Shown: one piece after another, positions 6,711 to 39,860 of the stretch | Numbering within the stretch: position 1 is the stretch's first letter | How the letters are laid out: each line of letters begins with the position of its first letter | Translations under genes and position numbers: made by a program | The notes under the pieces: generated by a model | What the model was told of the DNA's origin: nothing | The model's database searches: none | The model's input: only the letters and a program-made list of their open reading frames with translations | Source: Collinsella tanakaei | Lineage (GTDB): Bacteria > Actinomycetota > Coriobacteriia > Coriobacteriales > Coriobacteriaceae | Direction: 5' to 3' | Assembly (NCBI RefSeq): GCF_021531055.1 | Contig: NZ_JADYTL010000002.1 | Span: forward strand, 186,001 to 250,000 | Length of the DNA stretch: 64,000 bases

Positions 6711-7871
6711 CTACTTCATGATCTTGCGGAACAGCTCCACGACGGTGGCGTGATCGGCGTCGCGCGGGTTGCCCGGGTAGCAGGCGTCGGCCAGCGCGTC
6801 GTCGGCGATCTGGTCGAGCTCGTCGGCGGTGATGGCCTCGCACACCGTGGGGATGTCCACGTCGACGGACAGCTGACGCACCGCGGCGATGGCGGCGTCG
6901 GCGGCCTCATCGGTCGTCATACCGGTGGTGTCCACGCCCATGGCGACGGCAACGTCGGCCAGGCGCTCGGCCACGACGGGCTTGTTGAACTCCATGGCGA
7001 TCGGCAGCAGCATGGCGCAGGCCACACCGTGCGGGGTGTCGTAGTGGGCGGACAGGGTGTGCGCCATGGCGTGGTCGATGCCCAGACCGACGTTGGAGAA
7101 GCCCATGCCGGCGATGTACTGGGCGAGTGCCATGCCCTCGCGGCCGCTTCCGGGCTGACCGCTCTTGGCCTCGGCGACGGCGTCGCGCAGGTTCTTGGCG
7201 ATGAGCTCGATGGCCTTGAGGTGGAACATGTCGGTGAGCTCCCAGGCGCCGCGGGTGGTGTAGCCCTCGATGGCGTGGGTCAGCGCGTCCATACCGGTCG
7301 ACGCGGTGAGGCCGGCGGGCATGGTACCCATCATCTCGGGGTCGACGACGGCGACCTCGGGGGCGTCGTTGGTGTCGACGCACACGAACTTACGGACCTT
7401 CTCGACGTCGGTGATGACGTAGTTGATGGTGACCTCGGCCGCGGTGCCGGCGGTGGTGGGCACGGCGATGGTGAACACGGCGTGGTTCTTGGTGGGAGCG
7501 ACGCCCTCGAGCGAGCGAACGTCGGCGAACTCGGGGTTGTTGATGATGATGCCGATGGCCTTGGCGGTGTCCATGGCCGAGCCGCCACCGATGGTCACGA
7601 TGGAATCGGCCTCCGCGGCCTTGAATGCCTCGACGCCGTCCTGGACGTTCTTGATCGTGGGGTTGGGCTTGATCTCGGAGTACATGCTCCACGCGATGCC
7701 GGCCTCGTCGAGCAGATCGGTGACCTTGGCGGCGACACCGAACTTGACCAGGTCGGGGTCGGTGCAGACGAAGACCTTCTTGTAGCCGCGACGGGTGATC
7801 TCGCCGGGGATCTCCTTGATGGCGCCGGCGCCATGATAGGAGATGGTGTTGAGAACGATTCGATTGGCCAT
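6711..7871 (-). CDS. fucO: Lactaldehyde reductase / propanediol oxidoreductase (iron-containing ADH)
   Basis: Group III iron-dependent alcohol dehydrogenase of 386 residues. In fucose/rhamnose catabolism FucO reduces L-lactaldehyde to 1,2-propanediol with NADH and so regenerates NAD+ in anaerobes. It resembles E. coli FucO closely: GGGSAMDTAKAIGIIINNP, FADVRSLEG, PTTAGTAAEVTINYVITD, DALTHAIEGY and GMGFSNVGLGIDHAMAH. The metal ligands are D and H residues in those motifs. The start is the ATG at 7871 with AGGAGG eight bases upstream; the longer frame to 7925 has no RBS. A mutarotase of the rhamnose/fucose type lies upstream on the same strand, which supports deoxysugar metabolism. The isomerase, kinase and aldolase are not in the window. 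Confidence 0.9.
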   Translation of the reverse strand: MANRIVLNTISYHGAGAIKEIPGEITRRGYKKVFVCTDPDLVKFGVAAKVTDLLDEAGIAWSMYSEIKPNPTIKNVQDGVEAFKAAEADSIVTIGGGSAMDTAKAIGIIINNPEFADVRSLEGVAPTKNHAVFTIAVPTTAGTAAEVTINYVITDVEKVRKFVCVDTNDAPEVAVVDPEMMGTMPAGLTASTGMDALTHAIEGYTTRGAWELTDMFHLKAIELIAKNLRDAVAEAKSGQPGSGREGMALAQYIAGMGFSNVGLGIDHAMAHTLSAHYDTPHGVACAMLLPIAMEFNKPVVAERLADVAVAMGVDTTGMTTDEAADAAIAAVRQLSVDVDIPTVCEAITADELDQIADDALADACYPGNPRDADHATVVELFRKIMK

Positions 7872-36179: not shown

Positions 36180-36431
36180 CTAGTCCTCTTCCCCGGGAAG
36201 CGAGCCGAACGCCTCGACGTACTCGTCGTCATCCATCCAGTCGATGATGTCGCCGGGCTTGCAGTGCAACGCCTCGCACATGGCGGTCAGCGTGGAAAAA
36301 CGGATGCCCTTCAGGCGACCGGTCTTGATTCGGGAAACGTTGACGGGCGAGATGCCGATCTTCTCGGCAAGCTCGAGGGAGGACATCTTACGGTCGGCCA
36401 TCATACGGTCGAGTCTCATGACAATCGGCAT
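36180..36431 (-). CDS. XRE-family helix-turn-helix regulator (YozG-like)
   Basis: An 83-residue Cro/C1-type regulator. The HTH is residues about 15-70: MSSLELAEKIGISPVNVSRI, then KGIRFSTLTAMCEALHCKPG, ending in an acidic tail. The start is the ATG at 36431 after AAGGTGG. This small XRE type is regularly encoded beside DUF2975 membrane proteins, as here (12 bases downstream of one). It is the last gene of the radical SAM locus on this strand. Confidence 0.87.
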   Translation of the reverse strand: MPIVMRLDRMMADRKMSSLELAEKIGISPVNVSRIKTGRLKGIRFSTLTAMCEALHCKPGDIIDWMDDDEYVEAFGSLPGEED

Positions 36432-36442
36432 TGCAACCACCT

Positions 36443-36970
36443 TCACACGATGCTGCTGGAATCTTGCTTCAACATTCTACCGTACTCGAAAACTCCCGCA
36501 AGCGCGAAAAACATCGCAGAAAACATTAAGAGTCGTAAATCGAGCTCCGGGCGGACGTCAGCGGGCTGGAACCAGGCGAACATGCTGGTAGGCGGCGCGT
36601 ACTCGATATGCAGCAAACCGAACACGACCAGAAACGCATGAAGGTACCCCAGCACGATCAGCCGCTCGCTTTGGCGCCTGGAGAAGATCTCGGATCTGAT
36701 CGCGATCGACCAGATGAACAGATCGAAATTCCAGGCGATCGCGACGTTGGCGACGATCTCGACGGCGCAGAGCAGCAGATAGGCGATCTCGCCATGCGAG
36801 ATGCCGGATTGTGCGAGCGCCGGAAGCATCGTCAGCATACCCAACGTCACCAAGCCGGTACCCACGGCTATCACGACGCAGATGAGCTTGATCGCCAAAA
36901 CGACGAGGAGCTTTTGGCGCGGCCTGGGCGCCACCGCATCCTCATGGACGGCTTCACGCAGCGTGGTCAC
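36443..36970 (-). CDS. DUF2975-family four-helix membrane protein
   Basis: A 175-residue membrane protein with four helices (about 22-50, 62-82, 103-122 and 146-165). It starts at a GTG (36970) with GGGGAGGAGG upstream. DUF2975 proteins pair with small XRE regulators, perhaps modulating them from the membrane. Its position directly after the 25-residue peptide ORF makes it part of the radical SAM locus; a role in sensing, export or immunity is speculation. Confidence 0.78.
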   Translation of the reverse strand: MTTLREAVHEDAVAPRPRQKLLVVLAIKLICVVIAVGTGLVTLGMLTMLPALAQSGISHGEIAYLLLCAVEIVANVAIAWNFDLFIWSIAIRSEIFSRRQSERLIVLGYLHAFLVVFGLLHIEYAPPTSMFAWFQPADVRPELDLRLLMFSAMFFALAGVFEYGRMLKQDSSSIV

Positions 36971-36997
36971 GGTTCCGTATCCTCCTCCCCGATCCGA

Positions 36998-37075
36998 TTA
37001 CAGTCCGACCAGCAGCCCGAAGATCTCGACGCACAGGGAACGGGAATCGGTATTGGCATCGATCGCGAACAACAT
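36998..37075 (-). CDS. 25-residue peptide, candidate RiPP precursor or signal peptide
   Basis: An ATG one base after the stop of the radical SAM gene opens a 25-codon ORF ending in TAA. The RBS GGAAAGGAAG lies in the 3' end of the enzyme gene at good spacing. The peptide has a polar N-terminal half with I5-D6-A7-N8-T9-D10 and S11-R12-S13, one cysteine (C15), and a hydrophobic C-terminal end E17-I18-F19-G20-L21-L22-V23-G24-L25. There is no double-glycine leader. Precursors for SPASM maturases are often this short, and the hydrophobic end also recalls short hydrophobic signalling peptides. It is too short for family assignment; coding status is supported by RBS, position and absence of another explanation for the gap. 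Confidence 0.55.
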   Translation of the reverse strand: MLFAIDANTDSRSLCVEIFGLLVGL

Positions 37076-37076
37076 G

Positions 37077-38312
37077 TCAATCTTCCTTTCCGGTTGGGCA
37101 CGTCGACGCCACCGCGTCGACGGCGATGTCCAGGGCCCGGTCGTAGTAGGCGCAGTACGGATCCATACCGTCCACCCGACCGGCGGCGAGGTAAGCGCGC
37201 GCCCGACAACCACCTCCACACAGATAGCGCTTACCGCAGGCAGAACAGGTCCCCAACGCGTCGACCGCCGGCAGATCGAACGCGGAAAGGGCGCAGGAGA
37301 TATCGTCGATGGGGTCGTGGAATATGTCGGCGAGCCTGAAGGGAGGCATGTGGAGCATGTGGCACGGATACAGCGATCCATCCGCCGCCACGCTCACGCC
37401 CGTCCTGCCCGCGCCGCACGACCGACAGGCCGCCAGCGCGCGGCGCGCCGAAGGCTCCGCGTCGGCGTCGTGTGCGGACAGCCCCGCCGAAGCCAGGACC
37501 TCCGCCAACCCGGTCAGACACGTCCGGTCGGGCATAAGGTCGCCGAGCACCTCGGGAGATCCGCTGAGCAGGCTGAAGCCCACGCTCGCACCCAGTTCGC
37601 GCCCAAGCCGGAGATAGTCCGGGATATCGCCGACGTTGCGCGCGTGCACCGTCGGCAGGATGCGGGCGGCGATACCGGCGTCGCGAACGGTCGCGACCGC
37701 CTTCACGAGCGCATCGAAGCGCTGGTCGCCGCGAAGATGCGCACGGGCGGCGCGTCCGGTCCCGTCGAACGAGACGGCGACCGTGTCCACGAGCCCGGCA
37801 AGCGGCTCCACGCGATCGGGCGTGCACAGGGTCCCATTGGTGAGCACGCTCACCGAATCCATACCCGCCCTGCAGGCCGCGCGGGCGATATCGGCGAGGT
37901 CGTCGCGCAGGAAGGGCTCACCGCCCGAGACCACCAGCCGGGTGACGCCGAGCCGCGCCAACACGTCGAGTGCGCGTTCGAGCGAGGCGAGGGCGGGATC
38001 GGCGTCGCGGTTGCGCCCCGCGTCGTTCGAATAACAGCCGATACAGGACAGGTTGCACCTGTTCGTGACATGCACGTACGCCGACGCGAGACGGGGCTGC
38101 CGCGGTTCGTCGAAAAAGCCCCGGCCATCCAGATACGCCACGAGCTCGGCACAGGAGTCCGAAACCTCCTCGCGAGACACGTCGCGCACCGCCAGCGCGT
38201 CCGCGAGCGCTGCACCCTCCGCCGTCAGGCCCACGATCGTCCCGGTGCCGGTGTCGGCCGCAACCGGGATGCCGCCCATATCGAAGCGCACGATATCCCT
38301 GTTGAACCGCAT
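37077..38312 (-). CDS. Radical SAM/SPASM peptide maturase-like protein
   Basis: A 411-residue enzyme. Residues 1-70 resemble a PqqD-like peptide-recognition domain (TIVGLTAEGAALADALAVRD). The radical SAM core has C86-x3-C90-x2-C93 in NRCNLSCIGCYS, then VVSGGEPFLRDDL, VLTNGTL and VSFDG. The C-terminal SPASM region carries C299, C317, C356, C359, C365, C369 and C387, enough for two auxiliary clusters. Such enzymes install thioether, C-C or C-O crosslinks in ribosomal peptides, or modify protein side chains. A 25-residue ORF follows one base after the stop. No transporter or protease is adjacent. The start follows AGGGG. Confidence 0.88.
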   Translation of the reverse strand: MRFNRDIVRFDMGGIPVAADTGTGTIVGLTAEGAALADALAVRDVSREEVSDSCAELVAYLDGRGFFDEPRQPRLASAYVHVTNRCNLSCIGCYSNDAGRNRDADPALASLERALDVLARLGVTRLVVSGGEPFLRDDLADIARAACRAGMDSVSVLTNGTLCTPDRVEPLAGLVDTVAVSFDGTGRAARAHLRGDQRFDALVKAVATVRDAGIAARILPTVHARNVGDIPDYLRLGRELGASVGFSLLSGSPEVLGDLMPDRTCLTGLAEVLASAGLSAHDADAEPSARRALAACRSCGAGRTGVSVAADGSLYPCHMLHMPPFRLADIFHDPIDDISCALSAFDLPAVDALGTCSACGKRYLCGGGCRARAYLAAGRVDGMDPYCAYYDRALDIAVDAVASTCPTGKED

Positions 38313-38501
38313 GGTGCATCACCCCTCGTCGTTCCCGCTTCGCGTGGGCCCATTATCCGACGCCCTCAGGACAGGGGTGACCGATACAGTTTACGTTTGA
38401 AGAAAAACTTGCGATATTTCGTAGAGGCCGGATTGCGTTAATCCATGCTCGAGGATGGGCATGGCACGGAAATCCGGGGCCATCCGCGCGATGGCACTCG
38501 A

Positions 38502-39860
38502 TCAGGCGTCCGCACGGACCAGCGTACCCGAGATCTGCATCGTCTCGTCGCTGGAGGGCCCGAACAAAAACGGCGGCTCGGTGTAGTCGACCGACATCGA
38601 GACCACGAGGCTGCCGTCCAACCCGAGCGCGCCCTCGATGGAGGCGGACCCCGTGCCACCCGAGCTCGTCCCCGTGCCGCTGAACGTGTACGCCAGACCG
38701 TCCACCTGCCGATACGCCGCCGTCGCATCGGTCGGCTCCGCCGCCGTGAGCGTGCACTGCAACGTACCGCTCACCGGTGAGCTGCCGAAACCCGGCGTCG
38801 ATGCGCGGTACTCGATGGCAAACGAGCCGCTCGTCGCATCGAAGCCGAGCACGCGGAACGATGTGATCTGCGAAAGGCCGCTATCCTGCGCCTCATAGAC
38901 CCCCTGGAAGCGATCCGCATCGTAGGAGGTGGCGAGCTCGGCGTCCCCTTCGGAGCGCGTCCACGCCGTGCCGTCGAACGCGTACGTGTACGACGTGCTC
39001 ACCGTGGTCACGCCGAACCACAGGTCGTAGGCCCGCTCGGCGGTATAGGTACACCGCTGGTCGGCGGCGTCGAAGCTCGGATCGAAACCCTGCGGGAAAT
39101 CCGGGTCCTCGGTCACGCCCGCGATGGCACGCGTGGTGGCAGAGGACGCGATGATCGCCCCGGACCAGCCGGAATCCGTCGCAGGGGCGTTTTCCAGCTC
39201 GGAATAGCGCGTCTTGTCCGCGGAACGGGCGACCTTGAGGGTCGCCTTCGCCTCGCTGGAAAAGCTCTCGTTCTCGAGATGCGCGGTGACGTCGACCAGC
39301 GTCGAGCCGTCATCGTCTGCCTGCGAGGAGACGATCTGCACGTCGGACAGACGATACGGGGCGGCCTCGACGTAGTCGTCGGAGGCGAAGCCCGCCATGA
39401 ACTCCGCATCGGCCTCGAGGATCTGCTGGACGGCCGTATCACTTACCTGCGACAGGTGCGCGATGCCCCACCACGCCGCGATGGCGATGAGCACGACCGC
39501 CGCGAGCCCGGCCGCGACGGCGACGGCGCGGCGACGGCGCGAGGGGGCGGGAGAAGCGACGGCATCGTCGCCGGCTCGCTGCCCGTCGGCTGTCGAGGCA
39601 TCGGCCTGCTGCACGGCGGCGCGGATCGCGGCGGGAAGCTCCTGCGTGCCGCCGGAACGCGTCGCCTCGGTGAGCATGGCGGTCGTCGCCGCGGGGATGA
39701 GCAGCGTCTCCATCGCCTGGTCGCGCTCGTGCATATCCTGGGTGGCGACGGCCGCCGCCTCGCAGGCGTCCGCGAACTCCGGCGTCCCCGTCGACGGGAG
39801 CACCCGCGTCGGCGCGCTGTCGGGCGTATCGAATCCGTTGTCGTGCTGCGTATCGCTCAT
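38502..39860 (-). CDS. Single-pass membrane protein with large extracytoplasmic domain, unknown function
   Basis: A 452-residue protein. Residues 1-108 are a cytoplasmic, acidic then Arg-ending region (SPAPSRRRRAVAVAAGLAAV); one membrane helix spans about 112-134; the remaining 315 residues are a Ser/Thr/Asp-rich, beta-strand-rich exterior domain with two similar halves (VDVTAHLENESFSSEAKATL-like and SGTLQCTLTAAEPTDA-like sections). I do not recognise the family. The stop is TGA. It is upstream of, and separated from, the radical SAM gene by 189 bases. It may be a surface sensor or adhesin-like protein. Confidence 0.82.
   Translation of the reverse strand: MSDTQHDNGFDTPDSAPTRVLPSTGTPEFADACEAAAVATQDMHERDQAMETLLIPAATTAMLTEATRSGGTQELPAAIRAAVQQADASTADGQRAGDDAVASPAPSRRRRAVAVAAGLAAVVLIAIAAWWGIAHLSQVSDTAVQQILEADAEFMAGFASDDYVEAAPYRLSDVQIVSSQADDDGSTLVDVTAHLENESFSSEAKATLKVARSADKTRYSELENAPATDSGWSGAIIASSATTRAIAGVTEDPDFPQGFDPSFDAADQRCTYTAERAYDLWFGVTTVSTSYTYAFDGTAWTRSEGDAELATSYDADRFQGVYEAQDSGLSQITSFRVLGFDATSGSFAIEYRASTPGFGSSPVSGTLQCTLTAAEPTDATAAYRQVDGLAYTFSGTGTSSGGTGSASIEGALGLDGSLVVSMSVDYTEPPFLFGPSSDETMQISGTLVRADA

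Follow-up and report, generated by a model that had tools for sequence, protein, structure and literature searches.

In the comQXPA quorum-sensing loci of Bacillus, four adjacent genes code for a modifier, a short peptide, a membrane receptor and a regulator, and the loci form allele groups with a variable peptide (PMC4008528). In the systems of streptosactin (GggA/GggB, StsB) and other streptococcal radical SAM-modified, ribosomally synthesized peptides (RaS-RiPPs), small cysteine-containing peptides are modified by SPASM radical S-adenosylmethionine (SAM) enzymes (PMC13361665 and PMC8172795). Streptosactin, as described there, is regulated by Rgg/SHP and contains cysteines linked to the residue at +3 (C25-S28 and C31-G34). 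Streptosactin (PMC13361665) and enteropeptin (PMC12395415) are reported to inhibit their own producers. Here we analyzed a locus in a 64-kb stretch of Collinsella tanakaei DNA (contig NZ_JADYTL010000002.1, positions 186,001 to 250,000; hereafter the window), in which four minus-strand genes code, in this order, for a radical SAM/SPASM enzyme, a 25-residue peptide, a DUF2975-type membrane protein and an XRE regulator. Like comQXPA, it consists of four adjacent genes that would follow the same modifier-peptide-receptor-regulator logic, the receptor role being proposed here from the genes. The families are unrelated, however: a radical SAM enzyme stands for the ComQ isoprenyl transferase, DUF2975 for the ComP kinase and XRE for the response regulator ComA, and with these genes the locus is neither a ComQXPA nor an agr system. 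Streptosactin and enteropeptin are the nearest characterized products in kind. The window enzyme nevertheless scored far below the StsB cut-off (104.3 versus 625 bits) and does not belong to that family, the spacing of the streptosactin rings does not fit the module C-x-x-[IV]-G present here, and the neighboring genes are DUF2975-XRE instead of Rgg/SHP. No such peptide system was found described for Coriobacteriia in the open-access literature, and genome-mining atlases may hold an earlier description; in one open-access paper on RiPPs and radical SAM enzymes, the only mention of Eggerthella was in a table of Nif11-like precursors. DUF2975 is named in two open-access papers.

The new observation is that close relatives either keep or replace the peptide and the DUF2975 protein jointly, with the enzyme and XRE changing little. 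An order-wide search with an enzyme profile gave 70 matches in 64 of 297 genomes; each locus was read and one fixed rule was applied to find the peptide. Ten of the 70 loci did not contain all four parts by rule; they were dropped at first and restored where possible for the count of independent pairs, which were chosen greedily at an enzyme identity of at least 86%. Eleven pairs were obtained, of which L002/L022 was not assessable (contig end), and in 10 of 10 assessable pairs the fates of peptide and DUF2975 agreed. Both were kept in four (L032/L033, L162/L169, L176/L177 and L030/L031), with identities of 89-100% for the peptide, 85-100% for DUF2975 and 95-100% for XRE. Both were replaced in the other six, with 56-68% for the peptide, 39-58% for DUF2975 and 88-99% for XRE (five pairs with XRE present). 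Given as percent identity of enzyme/peptide/DUF2975/XRE, the replaced pairs were L161/L163 (96.9/67/58/98), L046/L048 of Gordonibacter (95.9/63/44/97), L178/L180 of Adlercreutzia/Enterorhabdus (93.9/56/39, XRE past the contig end), L157/L158 (92.8/68/51/90), L159/L165 of Olsenella/Thermophilibacter (86.4/68/48/99) and L047/L172 (86.3/56/46/88).

DNA profiles were made for five replaced pairs (all but L047/L172). Identity was 93-98% over the last 75 bases of the enzyme gene, dropped at the peptide start to 32-72% across most of the peptide-DUF2975 block, and recovered near the DUF2975 end where the contig continues; the four profiled pairs that have an XRE gene were again 77-98% identical along it. 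Within the DUF2975 protein, four replaced pairs were 38-50% identical over the body and intermediate in the loop at residues 91-104 (7-11 of 14 identical), and shared 15-17 of the last 17 residues (88-100%). This tail was also the best conserved part over 58 loci (mean pairwise identity 0.51, versus 0.16 for helices 1 and 2). For the same number of loci, a partial Mantel test of peptide against DUF2975, given enzyme and XRE, gave 0.215, a value reached by none of 2000 permutations; L033 and L169 had been dropped as near duplicates before this test and the column profile. Among 17 non-independent pairs with enzymes more than 80% identical, peptide identity correlated with that of DUF2975 at r = 0.89, of the enzyme at 0.40 and of XRE at 0.14. 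Peptide and candidate receptor thus co-diversify between conserved flanks, as pherotypes do, in the sister families only and with a weaker XRE flank in 6 of 19 pairs. The same two genes (DUF2975, PF11188, with HTH_26) also occur elsewhere in the window's genus, and two control sets of them, neither with enzyme or peptide nearby, were not diversifying. In six species with DUF2975-XRE lacking the peptide, DUF2975 was 90-100% and XRE 94-100% identical, at a DNA identity of about 90-96% over the main aligned stretch (four pairs checked); the other set (12 species, lacking the enzyme; DUF2975 96-100%) was uninformative because the pairs checked had DNA identities of 97.4-100%. That peptide and DUF2975 vary together favors cognate recognition. 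A preliminary description of this DNA had proposed the locus as a candidate for peptide modification or signalling, and the analysis supports that proposal.

That description had pointed out the 25-codon open reading frame (ORF) MLFAIDANTDSRSLCVEIFGLLVGL, one base past the enzyme stop with its own ribosome-binding site GGAAAGGAAG, as a candidate precursor, and both the ORF and its candidacy held. The fixed rule found a peptide in 64 of 70 enzyme loci and, as a control, in none on the antisense strand. With four additions made by eye (L016, with a weaker ribosome site, and the longer versions of L187, L188 and L191), a complete peptide lies near the enzyme in 68 of 70 loci; in L002 the contig ends within it, and L168 has none. 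The loss or frameshift in enzyme-keeping relatives that had been considered was thus not the pattern found; one metagenome-assembled locus, L096, has the ORF frameshifted (at about 7224-7320), by true loss or assembly error. Within the window's family, 17 of 65 genomes had an enzyme match (that of L017 weak and partial), the nearest enzyme being 60-61% identical to the window's, and nearly all loci code for a peptide of 23-28 residues with an MLF start (once MQF), a cysteine and a glycine. Across 14 aligned peptides M1, F3, C15, G20 and G24 were conserved; of the residues expected to be conserved only C15 was, D6, N8, D10 and S11-S13 being variable. A second collection comprised 80 named loci, the best 80 of 163, of which 25 were from Bacillota. 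Among these best 80, MLF peptides were present in 15 of the 25 Bacillota loci and near variants in two (L112, L125), and no MLF-type peptide was found in eight (L097, L105, L108, L109, L111, L113, L120 and L124). Chloroflexota L122 carries related peptides lacking MLF, and the Coriobacteriia without a complete MLF peptide were L049, L073 and L094 (contig ends), L096 (the frameshift) and L083 (absent).

The motif of the family is MLF...C-x-x-[IV]...G, and its shared module is C-x-x-[hydrophobic]-G. There are usually two modules in Eggerthellaceae and Bacillota, where the peptides of Neobacillus, Bacillus and Paenibacillus approximate MLF....K.NCVS.G..VCVS.G.. and are often in tandem. Most Coriobacteriaceae, and Atopobiaceae, have one, with the ending C-x-x-[IVF]-x-x-[ILVF]-x-[IV]-G-x. 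One-module peptides map to one clade of the enzyme tree (20 rows, support 98/93; L060 and L066 have extra cysteines before the module); the tree, rooted by midpoint only, was built from the enzymes of the window and of 50 among the 80 named loci. The peptide frame is under purifying selection: nine close pairs of equal peptide length had 64.8 synonymous changes over 158.8 sites versus 64.2 replacement changes over 519.2, a 3.3-fold higher synonymous rate per site (odds ratio 4.9, p = 4e-14, the p-value being merely indicative because the pairs share history and sites). We conclude that the peptide family represented by the 25-residue ORF is genuine and widely distributed.

Some observations on the peptides stand apart from this argument. 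The formyl-peptide receptor of humans has N-formyl-Met-Leu-Phe (fMLF) as its classic ligand, and Coriobacteriia such as Collinsella, the relatives of Eggerthella and Olsenella are common in the gut. If released formylated, the conserved Met-Leu-Phe N-terminus would be fMLF; this is possibly a coincidence, yet the hosts are gut bacteria. Two to four tandem MLF-type peptides follow the enzyme in Bacillota L114, L116, L119, L107 and L080 and in L095, an Eggerthellaceae metagenome-assembled genome (MAG), and an ABC transporter was seen as well in the five of these loci whose genes were listed (all but L080). Near L103, L104 and L126, genes resembling an Agr-type sensor and regulator were noticed by eye.

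The enzyme has the features expected of a peptide maturase. It matched the Pfam radical SAM family PF04055 with 76.9 bits and the SPASM family PF13186 with 24.5 bits (cut-off 21.5), and the C86-x3-C90-x2-C93 motif and seven SPASM cysteines (C299, C317, C356, C359, C365, C369 and C387) pointed out previously were invariant in 51 aligned sequences including that of the window. In a structure model with a mean predicted local distance difference test score (pLDDT) of 93.3, residues 7-63 form three strands and two helices in the shape of a RiPP recognition element (RRE), in agreement with the PqqD-like region proposed earlier; this assignment is based on the model shape and on the full-length alignment with CteB, and a search with just residues 1-71 gave no match to a solved RRE. 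CteB (123 bits), PqqE and SkfB were the nearest solved relatives by sequence, and CteB, SuiB and SkfB by fold, at 16-21% identity in the Foldseek matches. Peptide maturases therefore head the list in both comparisons, before anaerobic sulfatase-maturating enzymes. None of the 25 best NCBIfam models listed was passed, StsB being the top one; mycofactocin (99.1 bits, cut-off 265), PqqE (88.9, cut-off 381) and the best heme-type model, AhbD (100.6, cut-off 500), scored far below their limits, and no sulfatase-maturase model was among these 25. With a peptide partner present as well, the sulfatase- or heme-type identity considered before did not apply. The SCIFF substrates of CteB carry six cysteines. 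The window peptide, with its single cysteine, differs from them and from ranthipeptides; PapB scored 69.2 bits (cut-off 340) and a SCIFF model was absent from the 25 best listed. With CxxxCxxC, SPASM, an N-terminal RRE by model and an adjacent precursor peptide, the enzyme is, by its domains and relatives, an RRE-SPASM radical SAM peptide maturase. A possible sactipeptide-type linkage (cysteine sulfur to alpha-carbon) is hinted at only by the invariance of the cysteine and the class of the enzyme. Among named enzymes, those of Collinsella and Enorma were the nearest. Relatives in genome contigs were found by a profile scan and not by a single-protein scan, and a search for plasmid-borne relatives of the Neobacillus enzyme gave one partial match only. 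A role in anti-phage defense was considered and rejected, the similarities to viperin and HTH proteins being generic.

In correction of the earlier assignment, the window's membrane protein itself has no match to PF11188, and the name DUF2975 is taken from relatives that match this Pfam family. Of eight homologs scanned, L009 and L011 passed (30.1 and 29.3 bits, cut-off 27), L005 and L018 fell below the cut-off and four had no match. The window protein is 26-45% identical to nine homologs and 18-21% to three. In the order-wide set, the enzyme has DUF2975 as a neighbor at 65 of 70 loci and XRE at the same number. Of the five loci without DUF2975, L002, L042 and L191 end soon past the enzyme, and L168 and L185 truly lack it by the profile used. 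The peptide after the enzyme, an order taken before as unusual, is the usual one among the loci read; in six (L030, L031, L040, L164, L174 and L175) the order is peptide-DUF2975-XRE-enzyme, with the peptide preceding DUF2975 and lying about 1 kb ahead of the enzyme. In the window (Table 1), 27 bases separate the peptide from the DUF2975-type gene, and the XRE ORF overlaps the end of the latter by 4 bases unless it begins at the ATG used in relatives. The view that the four genes are one operon is supported by conservation of the unit in three families. In Neobacillus, DUF2975 (40.9 bits) and HTH_26 adjoin the enzyme.

Table 1. Location of the genes and other features of the locus in the window.
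Feature	Coordinates	Strand	Remarks
Radical SAM/SPASM peptide maturase	37077-38312	minus	411 aa; RRE-like N-terminal region (residues 7-63)
Precursor peptide MLFAIDANTDSRSLCVEIFGLLVGL	36998-37075	minus	MLF start; one Cys (C15); Gly as penultimate residue
DUF2975-type four-helix membrane protein	36443-36970	minus	175 aa; variable body, conserved C-tail (159-175); proposed cognate receptor
XRE regulator (HTH_26, PF13443)	36180-36446	minus	Start in relatives: ATG at 36431
Intergenic stretch 5' of the operon	38313-38501	minus	Probable promoter
Upstream protein	38502-39860	minus	452 aa
Open frame antisense to the enzyme	36801-38441	plus	546 codons

Two sequence elements were found upstream of the operon. 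The element AATTTATCATAAAACNTTAAA occurs in some Eggerthellaceae (10 of 297 genomes, one copy each), every copy being just upstream of the enzyme coordinates. When up to one mismatch was allowed, a dyad, TGTAA-N8-TTACA, was present in 16 of 69 upstream regions, some of them from Collinsella relatives (40 shuffles: mean 0.5, maximum 3), several of these 16 loci being near relatives; at two mismatches it was present in 23 of 69, versus 7.8 in shuffles.

Based on these results, we consider it probable that the four genes form a self-contained system for the recognition of a modified peptide, in which a ringed peptide would be recognized by the DUF2975 protein, which in turn would act on XRE. The RRE-like domain of the enzyme would bind the peptide by its short N-terminal segment (MLFxIE), and 5'-deoxyadenosyl radical chemistry would join the cysteine sulfur to a nearby carbon inside C-x-x-[IV]-(x)-G, a thioether link suggested by the invariant cysteine and the enzyme class. 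The product would have one small thioether ring in the case of the window peptide and two in Eggerthellaceae. After a presumed processing and export, the modified peptide may act at the membrane, where the putative four-helix DUF2975 receptor would recognize its own peptide allele only. Its conserved C-terminal tail would relay the state to XRE, which may control the operon's own promoter, both this target and the direction of control being putative. For the window's species the same reading is proposed by homology to the Eggerthellaceae and Atopobiaceae pairs. More tentatively, we put forward as possible that DUF2975 is a new class of peptide receptor, with a variable body reading the allele-specific ringed peptide and a tail controlling XRE, and that Coriobacteriia use such loci for private communication or kin recognition, swapping cassettes of peptide and receptor body while the enzyme and regulator genes on either side stay conserved. 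If true, this would give a function to DUF2975, a family without one, and radical SAM-modified peptides would join the probable allele-specific signals; the natural receptor swaps would make the hypothesis directly testable.

The main rival is a narrow-spectrum, self-targeting antibiotic, like streptosactin and enteropeptin, with DUF2975 as dedicated immunity protein and XRE merely regulating the pair. Toxin-immunity pairs co-vary too, and those two products are reported to inhibit their own producers (PMC13361665 and PMC12395415). Besides, the Bacillota loci look like bacteriocin clusters, some with several tandem peptides, and in 11 of 11 loci listed (10 of Bacillota and the Eggerthellaceae MAG L095) the sequence contains an ABC-type ATPase after the enzyme. 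The Eggerthellaceae upstream element, restricted to the operon in its 10 genomes, reveals no wider regulon, which would also suit an antibiotic. However, immunity by itself would not require a tail that stays conserved next to a regulator, the operon of Coriobacteriia has no visible exporter, and peptide-less DUF2975-XRE pairs exist, which fits a sensor and its regulator. Signalling was ranked above immunity because a conserved tail by the regulator and a variable body tracking the peptide fit a receptor with separate input and output, and we regard the antibiotic as unlikely. Were it true, the peptides would still make up a large family of very small and probably ringed molecules whose immunity genes can be identified.

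The joint replacement could also mean that peptide and DUF2975 simply evolve faster than the rest of the operon or sit at a recombination hot spot, with no direct contact. Recombination moves neighbors jointly regardless of function, the peptide adjoins DUF2975 in these loci, and XRE diverges too in six less close pairs; nevertheless, the fall in identity at the peptide start and its recovery near the DUF2975 end with the tail spared, the lack of diversification in the control DUF2975-XRE pair and the joint absence of both parts in L168 and L083 make this quite improbable. Still less probable is that the enzyme, in the manner of PqqE and mycofactocin maturases, turns the peptide into a conserved redox cofactor or another small molecule to which DUF2975-XRE respond. 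A short single-purpose peptide and general similarity to PqqE and mycofactocin maturases would agree with it, but a uniform precursor would then be expected, and the core differs between species with enzymes 93-97% identical; the enzyme is also far under the cut-offs of both those families. That the ORF is a chance or leader ORF coupling translation of enzyme and DUF2975, its product being irrelevant, is suggested by its start one base past the enzyme stop and its 25 codons; it is scarcely credible given MLF, C and G conserved across two phyla, the purifying selection on the frame and the six permuted loci, where the peptide is remote from the enzyme end.

Several findings weigh against a recognition system. 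Replacement was seen in Eggerthellaceae (five pairs) and Atopobiaceae (one) and not in the window's family. Among 22 pairs with enzyme identity of at least 80%, XRE was only 55-72% identical in 6 of the 19 with a known XRE, and two non-independent pairs were partly discordant (L047/L163, peptide 93% and DUF2975 77%; L048/L157, 79% and 55%). A search of the DUF2975 model against the PDB gave no fold relative at an E value of 0.001 or below. In Bacillota, XRE adjoins the enzyme in only two of 25 loci and DUF2975 in one, which the DUF2975 profile had missed, so this profile is insensitive. Some parts also occur without others: L168 and L083 have retained enzyme and XRE but neither peptide nor DUF2975; L147 and L148, of the window's genus, keep DUF2975-XRE beside an ftsE-type gene without enzyme and peptide; L149, of the same genus, keeps XRE with a distant DUF2975 and no enzyme; and L150-L152, of the window's family, keep a close XRE alone. 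The operon of Coriobacteriia holds no exporter or protease gene. Finally, 46 of 69 upstream regions lack the dyad at two mismatches, and the window's own has none within that limit.

L168 still has the upstream element, and L168 and L083 are possibly receivers or decaying copies. Elsewhere in Coriobacteriaceae, DUF2975-XRE or XRE genes adjoin genes for small secreted-looking proteins that belong to no known family and/or ABC transporters (L151, 2075-4707; L149, 2265-3928; L153, 1533-5386; L057, 8195-10995). These are perhaps other export or bacteriocin loci under a similar regulator; an assignment of the small proteins near Collinsella DUF2975-XRE as lactococcin-972-like was rejected, no Pfam or NCBIfam match being obtained at the limits used.

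In the window itself, the long frame antisense to the enzyme is of a kind expected in G+C-rich DNA and is probably no gene. The 452-aa protein encoded upstream of the operon appears to have a single membrane helix and matched no family above its cut-off; judged by eye, other Collinsella (L054 and L147) carry similar genes in the same position.

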